This document shows positions 475 through 30,521 of a stretch of DNA of 32,298 nt, one piece after another. Source of the DNA: a bacterium. Lineage in GTDB: Bacteria > Verrucomicrobiota > Kiritimatiellia > CAIKKV01 > CAIYGI01. Position 1 is the first letter of the stretch. Every line of letters starts with the position of its first letter. The stretch is taken from assembly GCA_025360745.1 (NCBI GenBank), contig JANYBP010000010.1, positions 1 to 32,298 of the forward strand, written 5' to 3'. Below the pieces are notes generated by a model. It saw only the letters and a list, made by a program, of their open reading frames with translations. It was not told where the DNA came from and ran no database searches. The position numbers and the translations under genes were made by a program.

Positions 475-1272
475 TCAGGCATCGTACATCCGGAGGTCGT
501 CTCTGGTGATCTGGTCGGCAGGCACCAGTCTGTAGTGGCGTTCTTCCGTGATGCGTATCTCTTCACCGAAAACGCCAAGTTCAAAGAGGGCGATCAGATC
601 CTTTTCCACAAACTGCGCGGAGATCGCACGGCAGATGAGTTGCGGGAACTTCTCCGCACAACAGGCCATATCCTGTCTGGTCTGCACTGTAGAAAGACGG
701 TCGCTTCCGCCTTTCGCTTGAACGGGCAATACGTACTGCCGCCCCCGCTTGTCGATGGCGACATAGATTTCGTCGATTTCCACCTGTCCCAGTCCAGTAA
801 CGGTTGTCCGCAGATGGTTCTGAAGCGAATACGCGGCGACGCCAAGAAAGATGTCGAGGAGTCTATTGTAACGGACCTTCGCCAAAAGCGCCTGTTCGTC
901 CGATAGCGCATAGGCCGAAACGATCTCGGGGGTGGCATCGGGAATCTTGATGGCGGCCAACTGGGGATTCGGAAGGATACGGTTGATCGCAACCAACCGG
1001 AACGCATACAGAGATTTGCCTCGTCCTTCAATCACCCACTCTTTCCCGGGCGGTTGCGTCTTCGCAATGGCGTCCGGTAAAGCCATTCGGTATCGAATCG
1101 AGTAGATCGCATCGCCGAGATTCTTCGGCAATTTGATCCGCAGTTTCTTCGCCATTGCCGTGAGTTCGTCGCGAGGAAACGGCAGGTCCGTTGCCCCATC
1201 TTTGTAACGACTACAGAAGATACTTTCCATCAATGCCGAATAGCGGTTATCGGGCTGCTTCTTCCGCCTCAT
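475..1272 (-). CDS. Putative type II restriction endonuclease (PD-(D/E)XK-like)
   Basis: This 265-residue protein overlaps the methyltransferase gene upstream by ATGA and has a strong GAGGAGGG ribosome-binding site, so the two are translationally coupled. The only nuclease-like signature is in its second half: VEIDEIYVAIDKRG followed by VLPVQAKGG. It fits an acidic residue on one strand followed by Q-x-K, a known variant of the D/E-x-K metal site. The first 110 residues are basic and could bind DNA. Its place in a vsr-methyltransferase operon is the main reason for the call. I cannot assign a specificity, and no named endonuclease family comes to mind. The protein ends (RMYDA) at the edge of the repeat cluster. 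It could instead be an accessory protein of the restriction system. Confidence 0.65.
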   Translation of the reverse strand: MRRKKQPDNRYSALMESIFCSRYKDGATDLPFPRDELTAMAKKLRIKLPKNLGDAIYSIRYRMALPDAIAKTQPPGKEWVIEGRGKSLYAFRLVAINRILPNPQLAAIKIPDATPEIVSAYALSDEQALLAKVRYNRLLDIFLGVAAYSLQNHLRTTVTGLGQVEIDEIYVAIDKRGRQYVLPVQAKGGSDRLSTVQTRQDMACCAEKFPQLICRAISAQFVEKDLIALFELGVFGEEIRITEERHYRLVPADQITRDDLRMYDA

Positions 1273-2606
1273 GAAACCCTCCTCATCGCCGGTCGGGCCG
1301 ACGACTCGATCTCAGACTGTTTCCGTTTATGCAAACCGTTCTTGCGGTCACGCCGCGCTATGGGAACGGGAACCTTCCAGTATTCCGCGGCCTCTCCCAT
1401 ATCCATCGAGAGAAGATCGGGACGGCCGAGGTCAACGCTTTGGGCAGGTCGTTCTGGTACGATTCCGAGCGCCCGAATAACCGCGCCGGCAACAGCTCTG
1501 GCAAGTGGCGGCGGAACCGAGTTTCCGATCTGGCGCGCTCCGTGCCACTTCGTAACATGGAAACGGAACCAATCGGGATACCCGTGAAGGCGGGCCATTT
1601 CGCGAACGGTAACACAACGGGAAAAGGCGAAATGTATAGGGCGTGGACTGGTGAAGGCGCCTCGGGCAGAATCTGTGCCTGCGCGCAACGTGTTGCAGAC
1701 GCCGTTCCGGGACAGTTTGAAGAATCGCGAAATCGGTTCGACTTCGCCTTCCCGCGTTGCCCCGAAGCGTTTCCGAGAAATGTCCGTATGCACCGTGCGC
1801 ATGCTGGAAGTCAGTATGTCGGGCCGCCAGTTTCGGACGTAGCCGAAATGCCATGCGGCATCGCCGGCGCAACGCAACTCGCGCGAGTAATCGGAGAGGA
1901 CTTCGCCATTCCCATCCTTCACCGAATCGGACGTCATCAGTTCGACCCACTGCTCGACGTCGGGTAAGTCCGCGAGGGCATCGAGACAAGTTGGCGTGGG
2001 GTTCCTCCCATTCCGGCCAAATAGGTCGTCCCCGGTCGTGCTGGTCTCCTCTGGGTAGACCGGAACCGCGACGCCCTTCTTCGCGCCGAGCAAGAAGAGG
2101 CGTTGCCTGTCTTGCGGAACTCCGTAATTCATCGCGTTCAAAACCTTCCACGGAATCTGTACGCGATACCCCAAGTCCCCGAATACTTCGATCAGAGATT
2201 CGAGGAACATACGGTGTTTGCCGATCGTCAAACCCTTGACGTTCTCGAAAACGAAAGTCTTTGCCCCGAGTTCGGAAACCAGGCGAACGAATTCCTTCAC
2301 GAGTTGGTTGCGAGTGTCGTCAAGCATTCGGTGTCCGATCAGGGAAAACCCTTGACATGGCGGGCCTCCGAAAACGACATCCACAGGCTTTCGTCCAATC
2401 CCCGCCCTCTCTCGCAACTCCTGCCCGGTCAACCCGACTATTGACCGTGCCAGGACGTTGGTGTTTGGGAAATTATAGTGGTGAACGGCGGCATGAATCG
2501 GGTCGATCTCCACGGCGGCAGCGATGTCGAACCCGGCTTGCTCGAACCCCAACGACATGCCTCCGGCACCGGCAAACAGGTCGATTCCTATGGGTCGCCT
2601 ATCCAT
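1269..2606 (-). CDS. dcm: DNA (cytosine-5-)-methyltransferase
   Basis: Transfers a methyl group from S-adenosylmethionine to C5 of cytosine in a specific DNA sequence, protecting host DNA from the linked endonuclease. With the start chosen here the protein has 445 residues. Conserved motifs are in canonical order: motif I DLFAGAGG (9-16), motif IV PPCQGFS with catalytic Cys84, motif VI ENV (121-123), motif VIII QDRQR (165-169), motif IX REMARLHGYP (335-344) and motif X GNSVPP (361-366). The target-recognition region lies between about 175 and 325. I chose the ATG at 2606, not the upstream one at 2633, because GAGGA precedes it at good spacing and its overlap with vsr is then only 8 bp. The recognition sequence cannot be read from the protein. 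The gene symbol is generic. Confidence 0.95.
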   Translation of the reverse strand: MDRRPIGIDLFAGAGGMSLGFEQAGFDIAAAVEIDPIHAAVHHYNFPNTNVLARSIVGLTGQELRERAGIGRKPVDVVFGGPPCQGFSLIGHRMLDDTRNQLVKEFVRLVSELGAKTFVFENVKGLTIGKHRMFLESLIEVFGDLGYRVQIPWKVLNAMNYGVPQDRQRLFLLGAKKGVAVPVYPEETSTTGDDLFGRNGRNPTPTCLDALADLPDVEQWVELMTSDSVKDGNGEVLSDYSRELRCAGDAAWHFGYVRNWRPDILTSSMRTVHTDISRKRFGATREGEVEPISRFFKLSRNGVCNTLRAGTDSARGAFTSPRPIHFAFSRCVTVREMARLHGYPDWFRFHVTKWHGARQIGNSVPPPLARAVAGAVIRALGIVPERPAQSVDLGRPDLLSMDMGEAAEYWKVPVPIARRDRKNGLHKRKQSEIESSARPAMRRVS

Positions 2607-3003
2607 TCGCAAAATCCTCGATCCGCGCCTCAAGCGCGTCCTTCTTCTTGAGTTGGCATTGCCAGACGATCATGACAGACCAGCCCGCTTTCCTCAAGCC
2701 GTTTGCCTGCTTCCGATCGCGCGCCTTGTTGACGGCAATCTTCGGCTTCCAATAGTCAAGCCGGCTCTTGGGCAGCCTGCCGTAGCGGCACGAGTGCCCA
2801 TGCCAGAAGCACCCGTGAACGAAGATGACTTTATGTCTACTGACCAAGACCAAGTCGGGGCTTCCCGGCAGGTCGTCCCTTGTAAGCGAGTACCGGAAGC
2901 CAAGGCGATGCACGATGGAGCGGACGGCCTTCTCCGCTCCGGTATCGCGAGTGTGGACCGCCCCCATGATCTTGCTTCGAGTCGTTTTGCTTACTCGATC
3001 CAT
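2599..3003 (-). CDS. vsr: Very short patch repair endonuclease (Vsr)
   Basis: Nicks DNA beside T:G mismatches that arise when 5-methylcytosine deaminates, starting repair back to C:G. This offsets the mutagenic cost of the neighbouring methyltransferase. The 134-residue length is normal for the family. Visible hallmarks are the N-terminal MGAVHTRDTGAE helix region, LPGSPDLVL with the catalytic aspartate near residue 50, the zinc and active-site segment HGCFWHGHSC (63-72), the W-x-x-K-I-x-x-N segment, and a C-terminal GWSVMIVWQCQL. It is the first gene of the three-gene restriction module and starts 42 bp after the stop of the upstream alpha-2-macroglobulin gene. No clear intrinsic terminator separates them, so read-through is possible. 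Confidence 0.96.
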   Translation of the reverse strand: MDRVSKTTRSKIMGAVHTRDTGAEKAVRSIVHRLGFRYSLTRDDLPGSPDLVLVSRHKVIFVHGCFWHGHSCRYGRLPKSRLDYWKPKIAVNKARDRKQANGLRKAGWSVMIVWQCQLKKKDALEARIEDFANG

Positions 3004-3045: not shown

Positions 3046-6000
3046 TTACTTCACTTCCAGTTCAAAGCTCTCCGAGTGGCTGTTGAACTCCGGGGCGTAC
3101 ATGCTCTGGATGCTGGCGATGCCGGTCTGGTATTTGCCCTTGAGTTGGATGCGCACGCTGTACTCGAAAACATATATGCCTTTCGGCAGATAGTGTATGA
3201 AGAAGTGGCTGGCGGTGTCGCGGGTGCTCTCGTAGTACGCCAGCCCGTCCTGGAATCTGGTCTGGCTCAGCACGTTCACCGGTTCGGTGCCGCTGCCGCG
3301 CTGGTCTTTGAGATGGACATATTCCATGTCGCGATCCACGCGCAACTCCAGGCGCACGACCAGTTCGTCGCCGACCGCCAGCGCACCTTTGACCGGCTGT
3401 AGAACCTGGCCGGCCTTGGTGTTGTCCTTGCGGTAAAGCGTCTTCTTCAACTTCAGCGGCGTGCCTTCGTAAGGTGTGACCTTGGTCATGTCCTCCAGAT
3501 ATTGCCAGTGTACGCTGCCCCAACTGACACCTTCGTCGGTTTTCTTCACCGTGATGCTGCCCATGCCCGGCTTGATCTCGCCGCGGACGAATTTCTTTTC
3601 GTAAAAGCCGGTGCCGGCCTCGACCTTTTCAGGCTTGATCGTCTCGCCGCCCAGACTGACCTCGACCAGCGCGTCGCTGGCCAACAGGTTTTTGCCGCGC
3701 AGGAGCAGACCATAGACGGCGTCGGCGGTGGCCTTGGTGGTCTTCCAGTCCTGCGTCTGCTTCTGCTTCAACAGCCAGACCTTGCAATCCTCGACGGCCT
3801 GGGCGTCGCCCATGACCTCGTCGAAGGCCTCGATCATCAGCGCCTGCGTCTCGATCGGCGCGCGATACCACCACCAGCTCAGTTCGAGATCGCGCCAGAA
3901 CAGGCCCAGCTCATCGTTGCTGACCGAGCGCTCTTTGATGGACTTCATGATCGCGGTCGGCGTCTCGAGATCGCCGAAGCGCTTGAGGGCGATGGCGAGA
4001 TGGCCCTGCGATTGCCGGCAGTCCAGCTTGAGCCAGAACTTGCGCGACTGCTGAAGGAAAAAGTCCAGGGCCTCCTGGCGATCCTTCGCGACCGGCATGT
4101 CCTTGAGGAAGAAACTGCGGCCATACAGGTAAAGCGCGTCGATCGAACCAGGCACGTACTCTTCAGGATGCGAGTTGTTCTTCTGAATTTCGTGGTAGCG
4201 CCTGTCCATCCAGCCGTCGAGCGCGTTCAAGGCCCTGAGCGCCGCGCTCAGGTCCACGTTCTCCGCGCCCAGATGCCGCAACCGGCCGAAGCCGGTCACG
4301 ATGTAGAGGGTGATGTATTCATCGCCACGTCCGCCGGGGAACCACGGCCACAAACCGTCGCCGAGTTGCATCTGGGCCAGTTTGTCGAAGGTCCGCTTGG
4401 TCTCGTTGTCGAGCCGGGCGGCGTCGAACAGGAGGCCGACGTTGCGGCGGGCCTGGCTTTCGTCGTTGCCCTGCCGCAGCCACGGCGTTTCTTCGAGCAT
4501 CACCGACTTAAGCTCCTGGTTCTTCTCCAAGGGACTGTCGAGCGCCGCGGTGTTCTTCCAGAGGTCGAAGATGCGGCGAATCTTCGGATCGGCATTGGCA
4601 ATAAAGCGCGCCAGCGCGTTGGCATAAAGCCGGTTGAAGGTCTGCTCGCTGCACTCGTAGGGGTATTCCATCAGGTACGGCAAGGCCATCACCGCATACC
4701 AGGCCGGCCGGGAAACCATCTGCACCGTCAGGTTCTCGCTCTTCAACGTCCGCGAGCGGCCCGACTCCCGCAGTTTGGCGAAGTCGAACTTCTTCGTCTG
4801 TATCCCGCGGATCGGCAGCGGCAGCGATTCGATCACCAGTATCCGCCGCGACAAGACCGGCAGATAGCCTTCCTCGCCGTCGCTGAGGCGGTCGGTCGCG
4901 CCGACGGCCTTGTAGGTCAGGAAATCGCACCCATCCGGAATCGCCAGGCGCCAGGCGAACGACTTCGACTCTTTCGACGGAATATCGAACGCATATTCCG
5001 AATTCCGAAGACCGACTTCTGAATTCAGCTCTTTCAGCGTCCGCGCATCGGCGAGCGTGAGCCGTACCCTGCCGGTCTGGCGGGCGGCCGACTGGTTGCT
5101 GACCTTGACGGTGAATTCGACGATGTCGCCCTCGCGCACGAAGCGCGGCGGGTTCGGCTCGACCATCAGATCCTTGCTCGTAACGGCCTTGTCGTCGAGA
5201 AAACCCGCGCGCAGTTCGCGATCATGGACAAAGCTCATGAACTTCCACTCGGTCAAGGCCTCCGGCATGCTGAATTCCATCTTCACCACGCCGTCCTTGT
5301 CGCTGAGCAGGTGCGGGAAGAAAAAGGCCGTCTCGTTGAGATTCTTGCGGGCCGCAACCTTGTTAAGGTCCGGTTGCTGTGCTCTTTCGCCTGCCGCGAC
5401 AAAGCCGGCGTTTTTTTCAGGGAGGCTTGCGTGCATGGCATCGCCAAGAGCGGCGGGCGCCGCGGCCAACATCATGGCTCCCGCCGGTGCGCTATCCTGC
5501 ATCGCCATCATTTCCGGTTCTGCTCTTTCAACCGGCGTCTTCGCCATCACACTATTGGTAACTGCGTAAGCGCGCATTCCTCCCCGTCCGTTCTCTCCGC
5601 CCCGGAAGTAGCCGTAGCCCCAGAGGTTGGCGGTGATATCGTTGGGGTAGTGCCGGTAACTCAGATCGGCGTGCCGGTACTCGCTGCGCCAGCCGCCGAA
5701 GATGTGCTGGAAGCCGGCCGCTCCATTTTCGAACCGCGGATAGACGCGGGTGTATTCGCGGCGGAAGACACTAAAGTCCCGCATCCAGCTATGCGGCTGA
5801 TACTGATCGAGCGATACGTCGTACAGTCCGGCCACCATTTCGGCCACGGCGCCCCTGGCGTCGGGGCCGGTCACGACGGCGGTCCAGGTCGTTTTTTTGC
5901 CCGGTTCCAGTTTGGAGGTGAACCGCTCCCATTTAACCGTCAATTTCTTGTTCGACCACGGCACATCCACAACCCGGTTTTCAAGATAAGCGCGGTTTTC

Positions 6001-25706: not shown

Positions 25707-25715
25707 GGCCACCAG

Positions 25716-26861
25716 TCAATCAACCTCTTTTAGCGCGTCTGCAAGCGGCAGCGCGGTCGCCTTTGGATGAATCGGGTACGAGGCGCTGCCGGGATAAACC
25801 ACGAGCAGGCGATCCAGGTTCAGATTCTGCAAGGCCACATGCATGGACTTCGTCATGGTGGGCGCGTCGGCACATTTGAATTCGACGCCGGTCCGCCGGC
25901 CATCGCGTTCCAGAAGCAGATCCAGTTCGGCGCCTTGCCGCGTGGACCAGAAGTGGGCCTGGGAAGCGTCCGCGCGATCAAGGACCTGTTCAAGGGCAAA
26001 ACCTTCCCAGGATGCCCCGTACTTGGGATGACCCTGAAGCGCCGCCATCGAGCCGACGTTCAGGAAGGCATGCAACAGGCCGCTATCGCGCAGGTACACC
26101 TTCGGCGACTTCACCTGCCGCTTGCCCATATTCTCGAACCAGGGCGGCAGCACGCGCACCAGGTACGTTCCCGCCAGGATGTCCAGATAGTGCCGCACGG
26201 TCTTGCCGCTGACACCCATGGAGCGGGCCAGTTCTTCGCCATTCCAGGTTTGACCATGATAGTGCGTGAGCATGTTCCAGAACCGGCGAAGCGTTTCCGG
26301 CGGCACGTGAATGCCAAGCTGCGGTATATCGCGTTCCACCTGCGTCGTAATGAAGTCTTTCCGCCAACGCAGCGAGGCCGCCGCCGAAGTTGCCAGGAAC
26401 GAGCGGGGAAATCCGCCCCGCAACCACAAATCGCCCTGCGCTTTAAGGCCGGTTTCCGCAAGGTTCAACCCCGCCACGGAGACAAATCGCACCCGTCCGG
26501 CCAGCGATTCCGAAACGCCCTTGATCAAGGTTGGCGAGGCGCTTCCCAGCAGGAGAAAACGTGCCGGTTGCGGATCGCGATCGGCCAGCGGCCTCAGCAC
26601 GGTGAACAGGTGTGGCATCCGTTGCACCTCATCCACAACCACAAGCCCCTTCAGACCCGAGAGCGTCAGCTCGGGAGTGGACAATGCGGCGCGACCAGAC
26701 TCAGTCTCCAGGTCGAAGACATGCGCGCCCTCCGGCCAGTCGCCGGCAATCTGCCGGGCGAGCGTGGTCTTCCCGACTTGTCTTGCCCCCAGCAAGACCG
26801 TTACGGGCGCCTCCGCAATGGCTTCTTGGAGCGTTTTTTTCAGTATTTCACGTTTTAACAT
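25716..26861 (-). CDS. AAA_14/DUF4143 ATP-binding protein
   Basis: A 381-residue P-loop ATPase of a family that is common in accessory regions of bacteria and archaea and whose role is unknown. The N-terminal AAA domain has Walker A GARQVGKT (25-32), Walker B GLVVVDEVQRMP (72-83) and the sensor segment FLLLGSASP. A winged-helix region follows (GEELARSMGVSGKTVRHYLDIL). The C-terminal DUF4143 part carries ELDLLLERDGRRTGVEFK, a PD-(D/E)XK-nuclease-like signature. I chose the ATG at 26861 because GGAGG lies 8 bp upstream; the frame also extends to 26900. It has its own consensus-like promoter with an inverted-repeat operator candidate. Repeat copy A lies immediately upstream of that promoter. Confidence 0.92.
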   Translation of the reverse strand: MLKREILKKTLQEAIAEAPVTVLLGARQVGKTTLARQIAGDWPEGAHVFDLETESGRAALSTPELTLSGLKGLVVVDEVQRMPHLFTVLRPLADRDPQPARFLLLGSASPTLIKGVSESLAGRVRFVSVAGLNLAETGLKAQGDLWLRGGFPRSFLATSAAASLRWRKDFITTQVERDIPQLGIHVPPETLRRFWNMLTHYHGQTWNGEELARSMGVSGKTVRHYLDILAGTYLVRVLPPWFENMGKRQVKSPKVYLRDSGLLHAFLNVGSMAALQGHPKYGASWEGFALEQVLDRADASQAHFWSTRQGAELDLLLERDGRRTGVEFKCADAPTMTKSMHVALQNLNLDRLLVVYPGSASYPIHPKATALPLADALKEVD

Positions 26862-26888
26862 GCATTTATCCTCCATGCTTTTGTGGAG

Positions 26889-26916
26889 ATCATAGTCCAA
26901 TAAGCATGGATGTCAA
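26889..26916 (-). promoter_or_regulatory. Promoter of the AAA_14 gene
   Basis: The minus strand reads TTGACA (26916-26911), 16 bp, then TATGAT (26894-26889). The -35 is perfect and the -10 matches five of six positions. An 8-bp perfect inverted repeat, CCATGCTT at 26873-26880 and AAGCATGG at 26902-26909, brackets the -10 box: one arm is in the spacer and the other is near the start of the transcript. This is a typical position for a repressor site. Confidence 0.75.
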
Positions 26917-26956
26917 CAAGGACGCGCAAGGCTGAAGCGGTTTAGGCTGAAGGCTG

Positions 26957-27130
26957 TTAGAGCGAAGCAACCTCGTACCAGAAAGAGCCGACACCCAGGC
27001 GCGTGTCAGCGGCGCGCCTGACTTCGCGACTGCCCCGTCCGCCTTCGCATAGCAGCACCTCCTTGTTGCGCGCAGCCAGCGAACCCGCCCAGACCTTCAC
27101 TTTCGCAACAGCCGGAACCCACTCCGGCGC
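26957..27130 (-). pseudogene. Conserved 57-codon open frame inside repeat copy A
   Basis: The minus strand is open from just after a TAA (27133-27131) to a TAA at 26959-26957. Landmarks are APEWVPAVA, ARNKEVLLCE and RRAADTRLGVG. The other repeat copy has the same frame with APALVPTVA, ARKAVLLCE and RRAADMRLVVG, a similar length and stops at both ends. No ATG opens the frame, so it is either a decayed gene fragment, a frame started at GTG, or a fortuitous frame in a structured repeat. Confidence 0.35.
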
Positions 27131-27184
27131 TTAAGGTCTATCGCGAGGGTAGACCACCAACGCCATCGTGCAGATGCCAGAACC
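26987..27184 (-). repeat. Diverged direct repeat, copy A
   Basis: About 190 bp homologous over its whole length to copy B at 28414-28603, in the same orientation. Shared blocks read on the plus strand are GTCAGCGGCGCGCCTGA, AGCAC, TTGCGCGCAG, TCGCAACAG, CCGGCGCTTAA and CCAACGCC, in the same order and spacing. It lies between the end of the AbiEi-like gene and the promoter of the AAA_14 gene. No ordinary gene is otherwise supported in 26936-27280. Confidence 0.85.
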
Positions 27185-27280
27185 AGATATCGCGCGGCGA
27201 ATGCGCCCACCAACATGGGTTGTGAAGACCCGCCACGAGCAGTTTCAGCCACTTGGAGCAAAACCGCGAGCTTCCTGGCC

Positions 27281-28333
27281 TCAAGCGGCCTCGATGATGG
27301 AACGGAGATAACGTTCATAAACATTCCGGGCGGCTTCGCGCGTACGGTCGTCGTCAATCGCCAGCAGGTCCGCATAGATGAGGATCGGATGAACACAAGT
27401 ATTCGCGGAGTCCAATCTGCCATCCATACGCCAGAAAGGCGAGAGGAACTCTACGGGACCTTGAGGGTCTTTTTGCAGACTGTGCTTCAGTACAAAGCCA
27501 TGCGGCGGGCGCTCGCCAAAAACCGTGACCGTTCCCGGTTTGAGAGTTCCGGTGAGTTTTGCTTCCGCCACCTCGCCAGACCACAAACCGTTTTCGAGCG
27601 AGGCATTCTTCCACCAGTCGGCATTGATCGAACGATAGCGTTCCGTTACCAGTTTGGGACGAAGAACCTCCAGGTATCCCTGAACCCATCGTTCCAACAA
27701 ACGGTACCGCCCGACCAGCGTTCGCACACCTTTCCCGACCTCGACCACCATGCCCAGTCGTATCAAATCCGCCATGATCCACCCGATGGTGCTATGAGCA
27801 AACCCTGTGGCGGCGGCGATCTCCCGGTAAGCGCGACTGACCAACGCGACGTACGGTTGAGAATTGTCCAGTTGTGAATCCGTCAGCAAGGCGAAGAGCA
27901 GCTTCAATCCACATGGGTGGAACGCGCGCGGCCCGGAAGTTGCGGCGGGCGAAAGAAGCGCGCGCCGTCCGGTAATCAGCACATGCAAACCGGGAGCCCG
28001 CAGGAAGACATTGCCGGACTCGTCCATAAACTCCACCCCGGCCTTGCGGAGCATCTCGGCCTGCCGGTCGTTCACATGCGGCGTCACCAGCAGCAAGCCG
28101 TCTTCGCTTGCCTTCTTCAACAGCGTCAGCAGGTGCACCACGTCGGAATTCAGCGACTGTTTCACCACAAAAGGCCGTCGCAGTTTGTGCCCGCGCAGTT
28201 TGAACCGCACCATTCCGTCGAAGCCTTCTTGCTTTCGGGCGATTGGTCCCAACGAGAAATTCTCGCAGGTCAAGCCGGTGAGTTCACCCACCGCCCGCGC
28301 CGCACGATCAAGCATGCTGGAATCCGTTTTCAT
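27281..28333 (-). CDS. AbiEi-like (AbiEi_2/COG4861-type) antitoxin-family protein, solitary
   Basis: A 350-residue protein resembling the COG4861/AbiEi_2 group, which is annotated as the antitoxin and transcriptional regulator of type IV toxin-antitoxin systems. Supporting segments are LLLVTPHVNDRQAEMLRKAG followed by GVEFMDESGNVFLRAPGLHV, close to the family's AGxxFxDxxGNxYLxxPG pattern. A winged-helix part follows (YREIAAATGFAHSTIGWIM), then a C-terminal RYRSINADWWKNA and HPILIYADLLA. No AbiEii-type nucleotidyltransferase toxin lies downstream; repeat copy A follows instead. I chose the ATG at 28333 because a promoter-like -10 overlaps the start region of the longer frame (28360). A third candidate is at 28315. 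No start has a strong ribosome-binding site. Confidence 0.75.
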   Translation of the reverse strand: MKTDSSMLDRAARAVGELTGLTCENFSLGPIARKQEGFDGMVRFKLRGHKLRRPFVVKQSLNSDVVHLLTLLKKASEDGLLLVTPHVNDRQAEMLRKAGVEFMDESGNVFLRAPGLHVLITGRRALLSPAATSGPRAFHPCGLKLLFALLTDSQLDNSQPYVALVSRAYREIAAATGFAHSTIGWIMADLIRLGMVVEVGKGVRTLVGRYRLLERWVQGYLEVLRPKLVTERYRSINADWWKNASLENGLWSGEVAEAKLTGTLKPGTVTVFGERPPHGFVLKHSLQKDPQGPVEFLSPFWRMDGRLDSANTCVHPILIYADLLAIDDDRTREAARNVYERYLRSIIEAA

Positions 28334-28348
28334 CGCAATCTGTTCACT

Positions 28349-28377
28349 ATTATGCATCATCCATTAGCATTGGACAA
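28349..28377 (-). promoter_or_regulatory. Promoter candidate of the AbiEi-like gene
   Basis: The minus strand reads TTGTCC (28377-28372), 17 bp, then CATAAT (28354-28349). These match the consensus at four and five of six positions. A transcript would begin near 28342, giving a short leader before the ATG at 28333. Repeat copy B ends its open frame 6 bp upstream of the -35. Confidence 0.55.
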
Positions 28378-28383
28378 GATGTT

Positions 28384-28554
28384 TTATTGGACACCAAGAC
28401 CCCCGAAAGCGGCGCCGACAACCAGGCGCATGTCAGCGGCGCGCCTGAATTCGTGGCTGGCCCGTTCGCGCTCGCACAGTAGCACGGCCTTGCGCGCAGA
28501 CAGTGCGCCCGCCCTCGCAGCCACCGTCGCAACAGTCGGAACCAAAGCCGGCGC
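28384..28554 (-). pseudogene. Conserved 56-codon open frame inside repeat copy B
   Basis: The counterpart of the frame in copy A: preceded by TAA, ended by TAA at 28386-28384, and one codon shorter through an in-frame gap in the ARNKE/ARKA region. It reads APALVPTVA, ARKAVLLCE, RRAADMRLVVG and ends GLGVQ. Several differences between copies are synonymous (CTG/CTA, GAA/GAG, AGT/AGC), but many are not. There is no ATG start. Confidence 0.35.
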
Positions 28555-28603
28555 TTAAAAGCTATTTCGAGGGCTGACCCCCAACGCCCCCGGCAAGACC
28601 AGT
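28414..28603 (-). repeat. Diverged direct repeat, copy B
   Basis: Second copy of the roughly 190-bp element, in direct orientation to copy A about 1.43 kb away. It lies just upstream of the AbiEi-like gene promoter. Near one edge it contains CAGGCGC ... GCGCCTG, a 7-bp inverted repeat that copy A also keeps. Its other edge touches the long hairpin at 28594-28690. Confidence 0.85.
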
Positions 28604-28690
28604 TGTATTCCGGCCCGTCGGCATTTCAGCGGTGACGGCGACCGCTAAGGGCCGTGACCGCTGAACTGCCGGATTGAGGGGCCGGTCTTG
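28594..28690. repeat. Long imperfect palindrome / hairpin
   Basis: Two 21-nt arms, 28619-28639 and 28651-28671, pair with only two mismatches around an 11-nt loop. A second, outer helix pairs CCGGCCC (28610-28616) with GGGCCGG (28679-28685). Ends CAAGACC (28594-28600) and GGTCTTG (28684-28690) are also complementary. The element could fold as a cruciform in DNA or a stable hairpin in RNA. No U-run follows on either strand, so it is not a simple terminator. Confidence 0.8.
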
Positions 28691-28931
28691 GATTAAGCGC
28701 ATGTCGCGTGGCTTGGCTGACGGGGGCCACACGCGGTGGTGGAAGCGCGTGAAGCTGACGCGCTGGAACAGCCGCGTGGGGGTGGCAGCCATGACGCGCG
28801 TGATGCGCGTCTAAGCGGCGGTATTCCGCCGCGCTGCAAGTGGTTCGCGGAGTTGGCGCGGGGTGGCGCGGCGGCTGGCCTTTTTGTAGCGGGCGGCGTG
28901 ACAGCCACGCGCTTCCGATGGAGGGGAGAAA
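28691..28931. other. Gene-poor GC-rich stretch with short hairpins
   Basis: No gene is supported. Small frames are open on both strands but are Arg/Ala/Pro-rich and lack motifs. Short perfect hairpins occur, for example GCGGCGG-TATT-CCGCCGC near 28814-28831 and ACGCGC-GTGAT-GCGCGT near 28794-28811. It may be decayed coding DNA or an extension of the neighbouring repeats. Confidence 0.5.
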
Positions 28932-29047
28932 GGACTTAAGGGACGGAAGGGACTTAAGAGACAGAATTGACGGAAGGGGGAAAGTGGCGGGGGGATTGGG
29001 ATGGCGTTTGGTTTGTGGACGGGATGGACTTGGTGGACGGGATGGAC
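28932..29047. repeat. Two purine-rich minisatellites with 18-bp period
   Basis: GGACTTAAGRGAC occurs at 28932-28944 and 28950-28962. GTGGACGGGATGGAC occurs at 29015-29029 and 29033-29047. Both pairs have an 18-bp start-to-start distance. The DNA between them is strongly purine-rich on the plus strand. Confidence 0.85.
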
Positions 29048-29442
29048 GAGGAATGAGGGGGTTTTGGTTGGCGGGTCGCAGGCCCTGTCACAGTCTGCCC
29101 TTCTCGTGTGTCCCGGCCGACGCTTCGGTCAATTGATCTTTGCGGGCTGATCAAAATGACATTGTTGAATGTTCCGCCCTGACCCCAATTGAACTGTTGA
29201 ATGTTCCGCCCTGACCCCAATTGAACTTCCCAATTGAACTGACCCCAATTGAACCATGCCCCAGCTAGCACCAAGGCCATGAGCGCCCATATCAGTCGCT
29301 TGGGAGGATCGAAGTAGTTGAGCGCAGTCCATTCGCTTGGAACGTGAACAATCGAGGCCAGAAGCACGAAGACCCCGACGATTATCGCCAGCCAGGGCCA
29401 TGCGGCAATTGCCTTGCTTGCATTGTTGTAAAGCCAATTCAC
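28954..29442 (-). CDS. Small two-helix membrane protein with repeat-derived tail
   Basis: The 162-residue frame overlaps the SGNH hydrolase gene by ATGA, which supports real, coupled translation of its start. Residues 1-63 look genuine: two hydrophobic segments (about 13-31, AAWPWLAIIVGVFVLLASI; about 50-63, LIWALMALVLAGAW) joined by a polar loop. From about residue 64 the frame is made of the 32-bp tandem repeat. Because 32 is not a multiple of three, the same DNA is read in different frames (FNWGQGGTFN versus VQLGSGRNIQ). The last 40 residues come from the minisatellites (SIPSTKSIPST). The natural C-terminus has probably been replaced by repeat insertion. No function is known. Confidence 0.55.
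   Translation of the reverse strand: MNWLYNNASKAIAAWPWLAIIVGVFVLLASIVHVPSEWTALNYFDPPKRLIWALMALVLAGAWFNWGQFNWEVQLGSGRNIQQFNWGQGGTFNNVILISPQRSIDRSVGRDTREGQTVTGPATRQPKPPHSSSIPSTKSIPSTNQTPSQSPRHFPPSVNSVS
29163..29254. repeat. 32-bp tandem repeat (two full copies plus a partial one)
   Basis: Exact 32-bp copies at 29163-29194 and 29195-29226, each containing TTCCGCCCTGACCCCAATTG, are followed by partial copies ending at 29239 and 29254 (TGACCCCAATTGAAC at 29240-29254). The core TTCAATTGGGGTCAG on the minus strand resembles motifs that flank REP-associated transposases elsewhere; that is recollection, not a search result. Confidence 0.92.
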
Positions 29443-30521
29443 TGTTCGGTTCTACCATCGGAAAGACTTCCGCTGCCAATCCGAATCTGGAACGTACCGG
29501 CCGGTAGTCGCGTGACCAAATCATCGGCCAAAGCGTAAGACAGTCTGCGGTGGCTCTCGGCATCGGGATGTACGCCCTCGTCGCTGTATCCTACAAGATA
29601 CGGACGCGCATCGAAGCAGCTTACCTTGCCATTGGGATAGGCCTTGGCCAATTCCTCCAAAACCGGGAGGCGGTTGGGAGTCATGCGGCAGAAGTTCAGC
29701 AGAACTATTCGTGCCTTTGGGTAAGTCCCTATGATTACATCGAGAAGATTGCGCATCTGGTTGCGGTAACGAGGCGTTCCCTTCTCGCGGTCATTTGCAG
29801 CAACGTTGACAAAAACGATATCGGGCTGTTCGTTGGTCGAGAGGGGAATCCCTTTCTGGAACAAGGAAAACTTGTCGGCAATGTCACCACAACCACAACC
29901 GGGGAAAGCGCGAACACGGTATCGGCTCCCCAATCTCTCTGCCAATCGAAAGGCGTAGGTTAGACTGGCGTTGGAGTTCTGCGCCCAGGTGCCGGAACGT
30001 CCTGAAATAGCTACCCCTGCGGTGATTGAATCGCCAACGAAATCCAGGAGAATTCCGTTGTTTGCGGGGGTCGCCTCCAATACAGCATTGTCACCGAGCG
30101 ACAGTCCCTCGAAACGCAGTTCCGCGCCGCTTGTGTCGCGCGACGCGGGATCGAACCCTTGCGTGTTGGTTGTGAGAAAAACGACGGAGCAGTTAGTTGG
30201 AGACGATCCGGCATCGATCTCCACATCATTATTACCAACGATGTCATCCCAGACAATGGCCTCGCCCCGTCGGATCATGGCCCGGATGGTGCCCGGCACG
30301 CCAGACCGCAGCGATACACAAGCTTTCCCTTTCAGACAGAAACGAACCTGACTGCCGGGATAGATCGTATAGTGCCGTGTCCCGTTTGTCTGCCAAGCAC
30401 CGAGGTATTGGAAGAAATGGGAATCCGCGGCGATAAAGCTTGCGTCATGTGCAGCGGCGCATTGCATTGCGCCGGCTAGAAGAATCCAGAGCACTGTGGT
30501 TGTAACGAGGCAAGTTCGCAT
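29439..30521 (-). CDS. Secreted SGNH/GDSL-type hydrolase (possible carbohydrate esterase)
   Basis: A 360-residue exported protein with a signal peptide (about 1-24, ending CAAAHD). An N-terminal beta domain (about 25-150) resembles the jelly-roll of two-domain carbohydrate esterases. The SGNH domain has block I FVGDSITAG with nucleophile Ser165, block III VAAND (Asn243), and a C-terminal DEGVHPD with His318. The usual D-x-x-H is E315-G-V-H here, with Asp314 one position early, so the exact acid residue is uncertain. It probably removes acyl groups from an extracellular glycan. The gene starts 6 bp after the upstream surface-protein gene and overlaps the next gene by 4 bp, indicating an operon. 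Confidence 0.85.
   Translation of the reverse strand: MRTCLVTTTVLWILLAGAMQCAAAHDASFIAADSHFFQYLGAWQTNGTRHYTIYPGSQVRFCLKGKACVSLRSGVPGTIRAMIRRGEAIVWDDIVGNNDVEIDAGSSPTNCSVVFLTTNTQGFDPASRDTSGAELRFEGLSLGDNAVLEATPANNGILLDFVGDSITAGVAISGRSGTWAQNSNASLTYAFRLAERLGSRYRVRAFPGCGCGDIADKFSLFQKGIPLSTNEQPDIVFVNVAANDREKGTPRYRNQMRNLLDVIIGTYPKARIVLLNFCRMTPNRLPVLEELAKAYPNGKVSCFDARPYLVGYSDEGVHPDAESHRRLSYALADDLVTRLPAGTFQIRIGSGSLSDGRTEQ

Follow-up and report, generated by a model that had tools for sequence, protein, structure and literature searches.

What connects two unrelated genes of defence-type families that are each preceded, in the same orientation, by a copy of one diverged repeat? This question is raised by contig JANYBP010000010.1 of the draft genome GCA_025360745.1 (131 contigs), which belongs to a bacterium of the class Kiritimatiellia in the phylum Verrucomicrobiota. 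The window, i.e. the whole stretch of DNA that was analysed, is this one entire contig of 32,298 bp. In a first-pass annotation made from the sequence, the locus was viewed as a set of gene cassettes with a common 5' module, such as a recombination site, a small RNA or a small leader gene. The genes and repeats in question are as follows:

25716..26861, minus strand: AAA_14/DUF4143 ATPase gene, PADLOC candidate PDC-S01 (Pfam and PADLOC matches)
27281..28333, minus strand: AbiEi_2 gene, antitoxin/regulator-type (PF09952, E 1.2e-30)
28414..28588, minus strand: repeat A, preceding the AbiEi_2 gene (shares 138 of 175 aligned positions with repeat B)
26987..27164, minus strand: repeat B, upstream of the AAA_14 gene (first base directly after the remnant of a partner gene)

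The basic layout described in the annotation was confirmed. The diverged repeat pair is real and, once trimmed, comprises 175 aligned positions with 37 mismatches and one 3-nt gap. Each copy lies upstream of a gene in the same orientation and is followed by a predicted promoter-like site. Both gene calls hold as well: the AbiEi-like protein matches PF09952 with 107.1 bits (cut-off 21), and the ATPase possesses the Pfam domains AAA_14 (PF13173) and DUF4143 (PF13635). The proposed shared 5' module survives in part. Both predicted promoters contain a 17-bp operator-like palindrome, which lies outside the repeat, so that the module common to both genes is this candidate operator and not the repeat itself. 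We consider it rather probable that two things hold jointly: the repeats are relics of a TIRYT-type element, and AbiEi_2, orphaned at this locus, acts as a repressor at its own promoter as well as at the AAA_14 promoter via the predicted operators. The features that carry this reading are the following:

28349..28377, minus strand: predicted sigma-70-type promoter of the AbiEi_2 gene, TTGTCC-17-CATAAT (promoter prediction)
26889..26916, minus strand: predicted sigma-70-type promoter of the AAA_14 gene, TTGACA-16-TATGAT (promoter prediction)
28359..28375, minus strand: palindrome resembling an operator, within the predicted AbiEi promoter (ranked first of all window sites by the matrix, 21.4 bits)
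26895..26911, minus strand: palindrome resembling an operator, within the predicted promoter of AAA_14 (ranked second by the matrix, 13.3 bits)

Two promoter-like sites were found after the repeats, with a mean of 0.4 in shuffled sequences. The AbiEi_2 gene probably starts at 28333 rather than at 28360, since the predicted -10 element would lie inside the longer open reading frame (ORF) and the relatives start at the position equivalent to 28333. Both palindromes are located between the predicted -35 and -10 elements. They were scored across the 32-kb window using a matrix built from five relatives; the third best site reached 9.9 bits. The pattern RTCCA-N7-TGGAY, which is the version characteristic of this clade, occurs in the window at exactly two sites, 28359-28375 and 26895-26911. 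It is absent from 46,740 bp of other loci of the same genome (some of them overlapping), from 20 kb of the same-genus genome G001, and from 54,675 bp spanning 14 AAA_14 homologue loci, all of which were taken from other genomes. Shuffled versions of the AAA_14 upstream region reached 13.3 bits in 7 of 5000 cases. The maximum upstream scores were 5.0 bits for the 14 AAA_14 homologues and 4.2 bits for 18 other genes of the window. A comparison of the two upstream regions that makes no use of relatives gave a best match that 13 of 300 shuffle pairs equalled or exceeded; limited to the stretches between -35 and -10, 60 of 5000 shuffles did so.

The operator-like palindrome is a widespread feature of AbiEi_2 genes. 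A protein search with AbiEi_2 revealed 72 homologues among the matches listed, including the protein from the window; the best of the others shares 75% identity. Scanning of species genomes yielded 127 relatives, and 80 loci were retained (L096-L175). The survey of viral contigs gave 27 pattern matches, with no AbiEi_2 relative among them. In five of the six closest relatives (L096-L101), the gene is preceded by GTCCAAT-N3-ATTGGAY together with extra half-sites; an extra half-site, GTCCAAT, is also present in the window at 28386-28392, near the AbiEi_2 palindrome. The perfect form of the more general pattern, GTnCr-N7-yGnAC, was detected at 59 of the 79 AbiEi_2 loci for which 150 nt of upstream sequence were available (0.1 expected); imperfect palindromes, such as those of L097, L099, and L100, are outside this number. 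All 59 loci carry at least one additional half-site. The half-site exists in clade variants, namely GTTCA (49 loci), GTACG (8 loci), and GTCCA (2 loci). Perfect 7-3-7 palindromes were found upstream of AbiEi_2 at 11 of 80 loci (2.0 expected); this form is rare because other clades space the half-sites differently. These patterns suggest that AbiEi_2 may bind the palindrome.

In relatives, AbiEi_2 is followed by a conserved partner. At least 300 nt of downstream sequence were available for 73 of the 80 loci, and in 64 of these an ORF of 150 codons or more follows on the same strand; 62 of the 64 ORFs belong to one family. In an alignment of 26 members, the motif G-A-x-A-R-D, followed by R, D, D, D and K, was invariant, which we take to be a nucleotidyltransferase (NTase) signature. 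The predicted structure of the partner from one relative (pLDDT 93) has its best PDB matches among nucleotidyltransferases; these include ANT(2'')-Ia and the toxins MenT1 and TglT, with modest TM-scores. The partner is a predicted toxin. Two members of the family gave no match in Pfam or NCBIfam, and one member gave none in PADLOC. Only a piece of this gene is present in the window:

27165..27318, minus strand: what remains of the gene for the NTase-fold partner, a predicted toxin (tblastn with relatives' partners, E about 1e-11)

The remnant amounts to some 50 codons, with residues 1-41 of the partner in one frame and 42-50 in another, and overlaps the end of the AbiEi_2 gene. It ends at 27168-27165, and repeat B starts at 27164. 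No further partner matches below E 0.1 were obtained within 26001-29500. Since the remnant ends at the border of B and this region holds no other partner match, the predicted toxin gene is cut off at B.

The borders of the repeats point to their origin:

28561..28588, minus strand: TIRYT-type terminal inverted repeat (TIR), 5' border of repeat A (1 of 28 positions mismatched to the element ends on contig C10 of the same genome)
27137..27164, minus strand: decayed TIR, 5' border of repeat B (7 of 28 positions mismatched; only the border of A is a better site in the window)

The 21-base core of the TIR is exact in A at 28561-28581, with 0.00 occurrences expected in the window. The third best window site for the 28-base TIR has 10 mismatches, as compared to 7 at B, and other sites within 9 mismatches are absent from the window. 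The element on contig C10 contains a Y1 transposase gene (PF01797) at 982-1278; the core flanks this gene in inverted orientation, once at 263-283 and once at 1398-1418. Contig C108 carries a short derivative that retains the two ends in inverted orientation. The core of A opens with GGGGTCAG, fitting GGGGWSAS, the motif of TIRYT inverted repeats as given in PMC3733652 and PMC6006769; the end of B, being decayed, departs from this motif. The region preceding repeat A contains the sequence TTGGGGTCAGGGCGGAACATTCAAC twice on the minus strand, without mismatch, at 29164-29188 and 29196-29220. It represents a second TIRYT-type end with the GGGGTCAG motif. Also, a 21-nt inverted repeat with 90% complementarity and arms 11 nt apart is located just outside repeat A, at 28619-28671.

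A and B are likely relics of a non-autonomous TIRYT-type element, because they combine a transposon-end border with a body that lacks a clear coding signal, an unusual fold, and an Rfam match. They resemble TIRtrons and TIRYT elements in that the end of A fits GGGGWSAS and the genome possesses a Y1 element with the same inverted ends. They differ in having one TIR each, in being gene-free, and in a body known from two copies only. The TIR at the repeat border gives substance to the earlier suspicion of mobile DNA. No report of a REP (repetitive extragenic palindromic)-associated tyrosine transposase in Kiritimatiellota was found in the literature.

The distribution of the repeat is narrow. Each copy retrieves the other in the genome search (E about 5e-34), and there is no further full-length match. 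In the search of the genome with A, 40 of 51 candidates were scored, and the query started 32 bases outside the repeat; of the other 12 matches, 11 were short and confined to the TIR end (query bases 20-69), and one spanned 27 bases. A search of 345 genomes of the class, with two candidates scored in each, did not find the body of the repeat. Apart from the genome under study, short matches were obtained in 7 of these 345 genomes, 5 of which were restricted to the TIR end. When B was compared with 97 relatives, only one genome besides its own gave a match, of 22 bases. Plasmids and phages yielded no match to the body, a conserved 24-base piece searched exactly was absent from species genomes, and a conserved 21-base piece was absent from viral contigs. 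Among 18 loci from 15 relatives (14 with AAA_14, 3 with AbiEi, 1 other), there was the 22-base match and chance matches at most, and a repeat match was present at none of the 80 AbiEi_2 loci.

One of the two spacers contains a sequence that also occurs elsewhere:

26928..26963, minus strand: 36-bp dispersed phrase, lying between repeat B and the predicted promoter of AAA_14 (89% match in G001)

This phrase also has a 32-bp match at 94% in another locus of the same genome (L074). Homology of the promoters beyond the repeat was considered and rejected as not significant.

Three other explanations of the locus were weighed. The cassette model with which the annotation started draws on two same-orientation copies standing before two unrelated defence-type genes. 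It could also appeal to interleaved inverted repeats, i.e. two overlapping hairpin options, seen at the promoter-proximal end of both copies (26987-27020 and 28414-28447); shuffling produced such a pair anywhere in the repeat 11 times in 1000 for A and 4 times in 1000 for B. Against it, there are only two copies and the repeat body was not found elsewhere. The annotation had itself held that a repeat occurring in all relatives only at these two sites, with no gene exchange, would refute cassettes, and the search result comes close to this. A leader gene was sought by means of synonymous counts, BLOSUM scores, and codon usage, and none of the six frames was clearly coding; the frame '- 0' was weakly conservative (0.116 and 0.079 of the null in two analyses), and the 57-residue reading of B gave no candidate in a protein search in which relatives must share three 5-residue words. 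As for a small RNA, folding was not unusual (z 0.72 and -0.03, and in a second analysis -1.23 and -0.25), and no Rfam match at gathering scores was obtained in the window. Conservation inside the repeat was not significantly uneven (scan p 0.17 to 0.44). The pattern CAGGCGC-N6-16-GCGCCTG is not special to the repeats, because it occurs at 9 places in the genome, compared to 2 for the reversed pattern. With these results, a cassette system of this kind is very improbable. A duplication of repeat, spacer, and promoter as one unit, with AAA_14 ending up downstream of a copied abiE upstream region and the repeat being no separate element, is not quite so remote, and we still regard it as unlikely. 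In its favour, repeat, spacer, and operator follow one another in the same order at both genes, and the spacers measure 38 and 39 nt (calculated from the coordinates) once the 36-bp phrase is set aside. However, similarity outside the repeat was reached in 236 of 1000 shuffles, and in 167 of 2000 when the phrase was omitted.

The strongest competitor, which we nevertheless judge doubtful, is that the AAA_14 palindrome is a coincidence, and that a decayed toxin-antitoxin operon and element relics merely lie beside an independently regulated ATPase gene. The location of the site between the predicted -35 and -10, its rarity in shuffled upstream sequences, and the far lower scores upstream of the 14 homologues argue against this view. 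Three observations favour it. With 11 of 14 positions, the AAA_14 palindrome is imperfect; in 6 of 40 shuffled windows, a site of 13.3 bits appeared somewhere; and the 80 AbiEi_2 loci are without a clear AAA_14 neighbour, with two weak tblastn matches at 21 and 23% identity. The first two of these also weigh against the joint reading, as do the points that follow. RTCCA-N7-TGGAY occurred with a mean of 0.14 and a maximum of 2 in 100 shuffled windows. One of the six closest relatives, L098, displays no palindrome in the approximately 120 nt upstream at hand, and the pattern GTnCr-N7-yGnAC was framed after inspection, a freedom that the observed excess far exceeds. AbiEi_2 itself has no solved homologue by sequence and no match in PADLOC or NCBIfam. 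Its structural model (pLDDT 84.6, pTM 0.66) retrieved nothing from the PDB at E 0.001 or better, and the weak fold matches are mostly to restriction endonucleases and winged-helix proteins. With regard to the element, A and B possess one TIR each, that of B being decayed, and inverted TIRs at both ends were not detected; for the 21-base core, B has 6 mismatches and four other window sites have 7.

According to the joint reading, a TIRYT transposase may have moved the repeats to this locus, and the arrival of B, accompanied by a deletion, would have removed the remaining part of the partner gene. AbiEi_2 would sit on the palindrome between -35 and -10 and obstruct RNA polymerase, in the way known for AbiEi at abiE promoters. 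After loss of the toxin, the retained switch would govern AbiEi_2 itself and the neighbouring AAA_14 gene. Control of AAA_14 by AbiEi_2, as judged from sequence, is slightly favoured. The wider proposal, that an antitoxin-type repressor without its toxin retained its operator code and came to control the PDC-S01 ATPase gene next to it, so that the switch was rewired to control of a defence gene, stands at about even chances. If so, the locus would illustrate concretely how an orphan antitoxin might persist and acquire targets: it is the operator, not the toxin, that is kept and shared. For the AbiEi_2 family, the analysis adds an operator code at the sequence level, with clade variants, and a conserved family of NTase-fold partners.

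In AbiE systems, AbiEi represses abiE through inverted repeats over the promoter, as described in PMC3985639 and PMC7319586. The likeness to these type IV systems consists in the order of genes in the relatives, where a regulator gene is followed by an overlapping gene with a nucleotidyltransferase fold, and in the inverted repeats over the predicted AbiEi_2 promoter in the window. The differences are that the partner gene in the window is truncated and no intact partner was encountered, that AbiEi_2 matches solved AbiEi proteins neither in sequence nor in fold, that neither Pfam nor NCBIfam has a name for the partner family, and that the palindrome is also present at a second, unrelated gene. 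Because the partner is lost and AbiEi_2 matches no solved AbiEi, the locus is not an AbiE toxin-antitoxin pair and functions like an AbiE regulator at most. An effect of AbiEi on many other genes is known from Mesorhizobium huakuii, where its loss resulted in 116 differentially expressed genes (PMC8436566). In that case, unlike in the window, the toxin gene is present, and the available part of the source does not mention an operator in the target genes.

The AAA_14 protein matches seven PDC-S01 models of PADLOC (best E 2.8e-87). PDC-S01 is described as holding fourth place in frequency among the defences of prokaryotes, and most such candidates await validation (PMC12988326); the excerpt available from that source states nothing on control of PDC-S01. 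The window gene resembles these candidates in its match to the PADLOC models and differs in that its predicted promoter contains an AbiEi_2-type palindrome, which the 14 homologue loci lack. No relevant literature on DUF4143 or AAA_14 was found among the matches listed.

The transporter gene adjoining the locus is 92% identical to its counterpart in G001. The DNA match to G001 stops at 25710, four bases beyond the stop codon of the transporter gene, and G001 therefore lacks the AAA_14/AbiEi region at this place. Housekeeping genes located further along in G001 are found on a different contig of the genome studied here. In another part of the window, at 478-3003 on the minus strand, genes for a DNA cytosine methylase and a Vsr endonuclease are present, followed by an ORF (478-1272) without a Pfam match. 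Another AbiEi_2/AbiEii pair (23.8 and 32.8 bits) is encoded on contig C96 of the same genome (L082, 504-2509); it adjoins genes that in G001 come after the same transporter gene. G001 contains an AbiEi_3/AbiEii pair (L068, 7772-9473), and at the corresponding place on C96 about 130 bp lie between the flanking matches (3434 to 3562).

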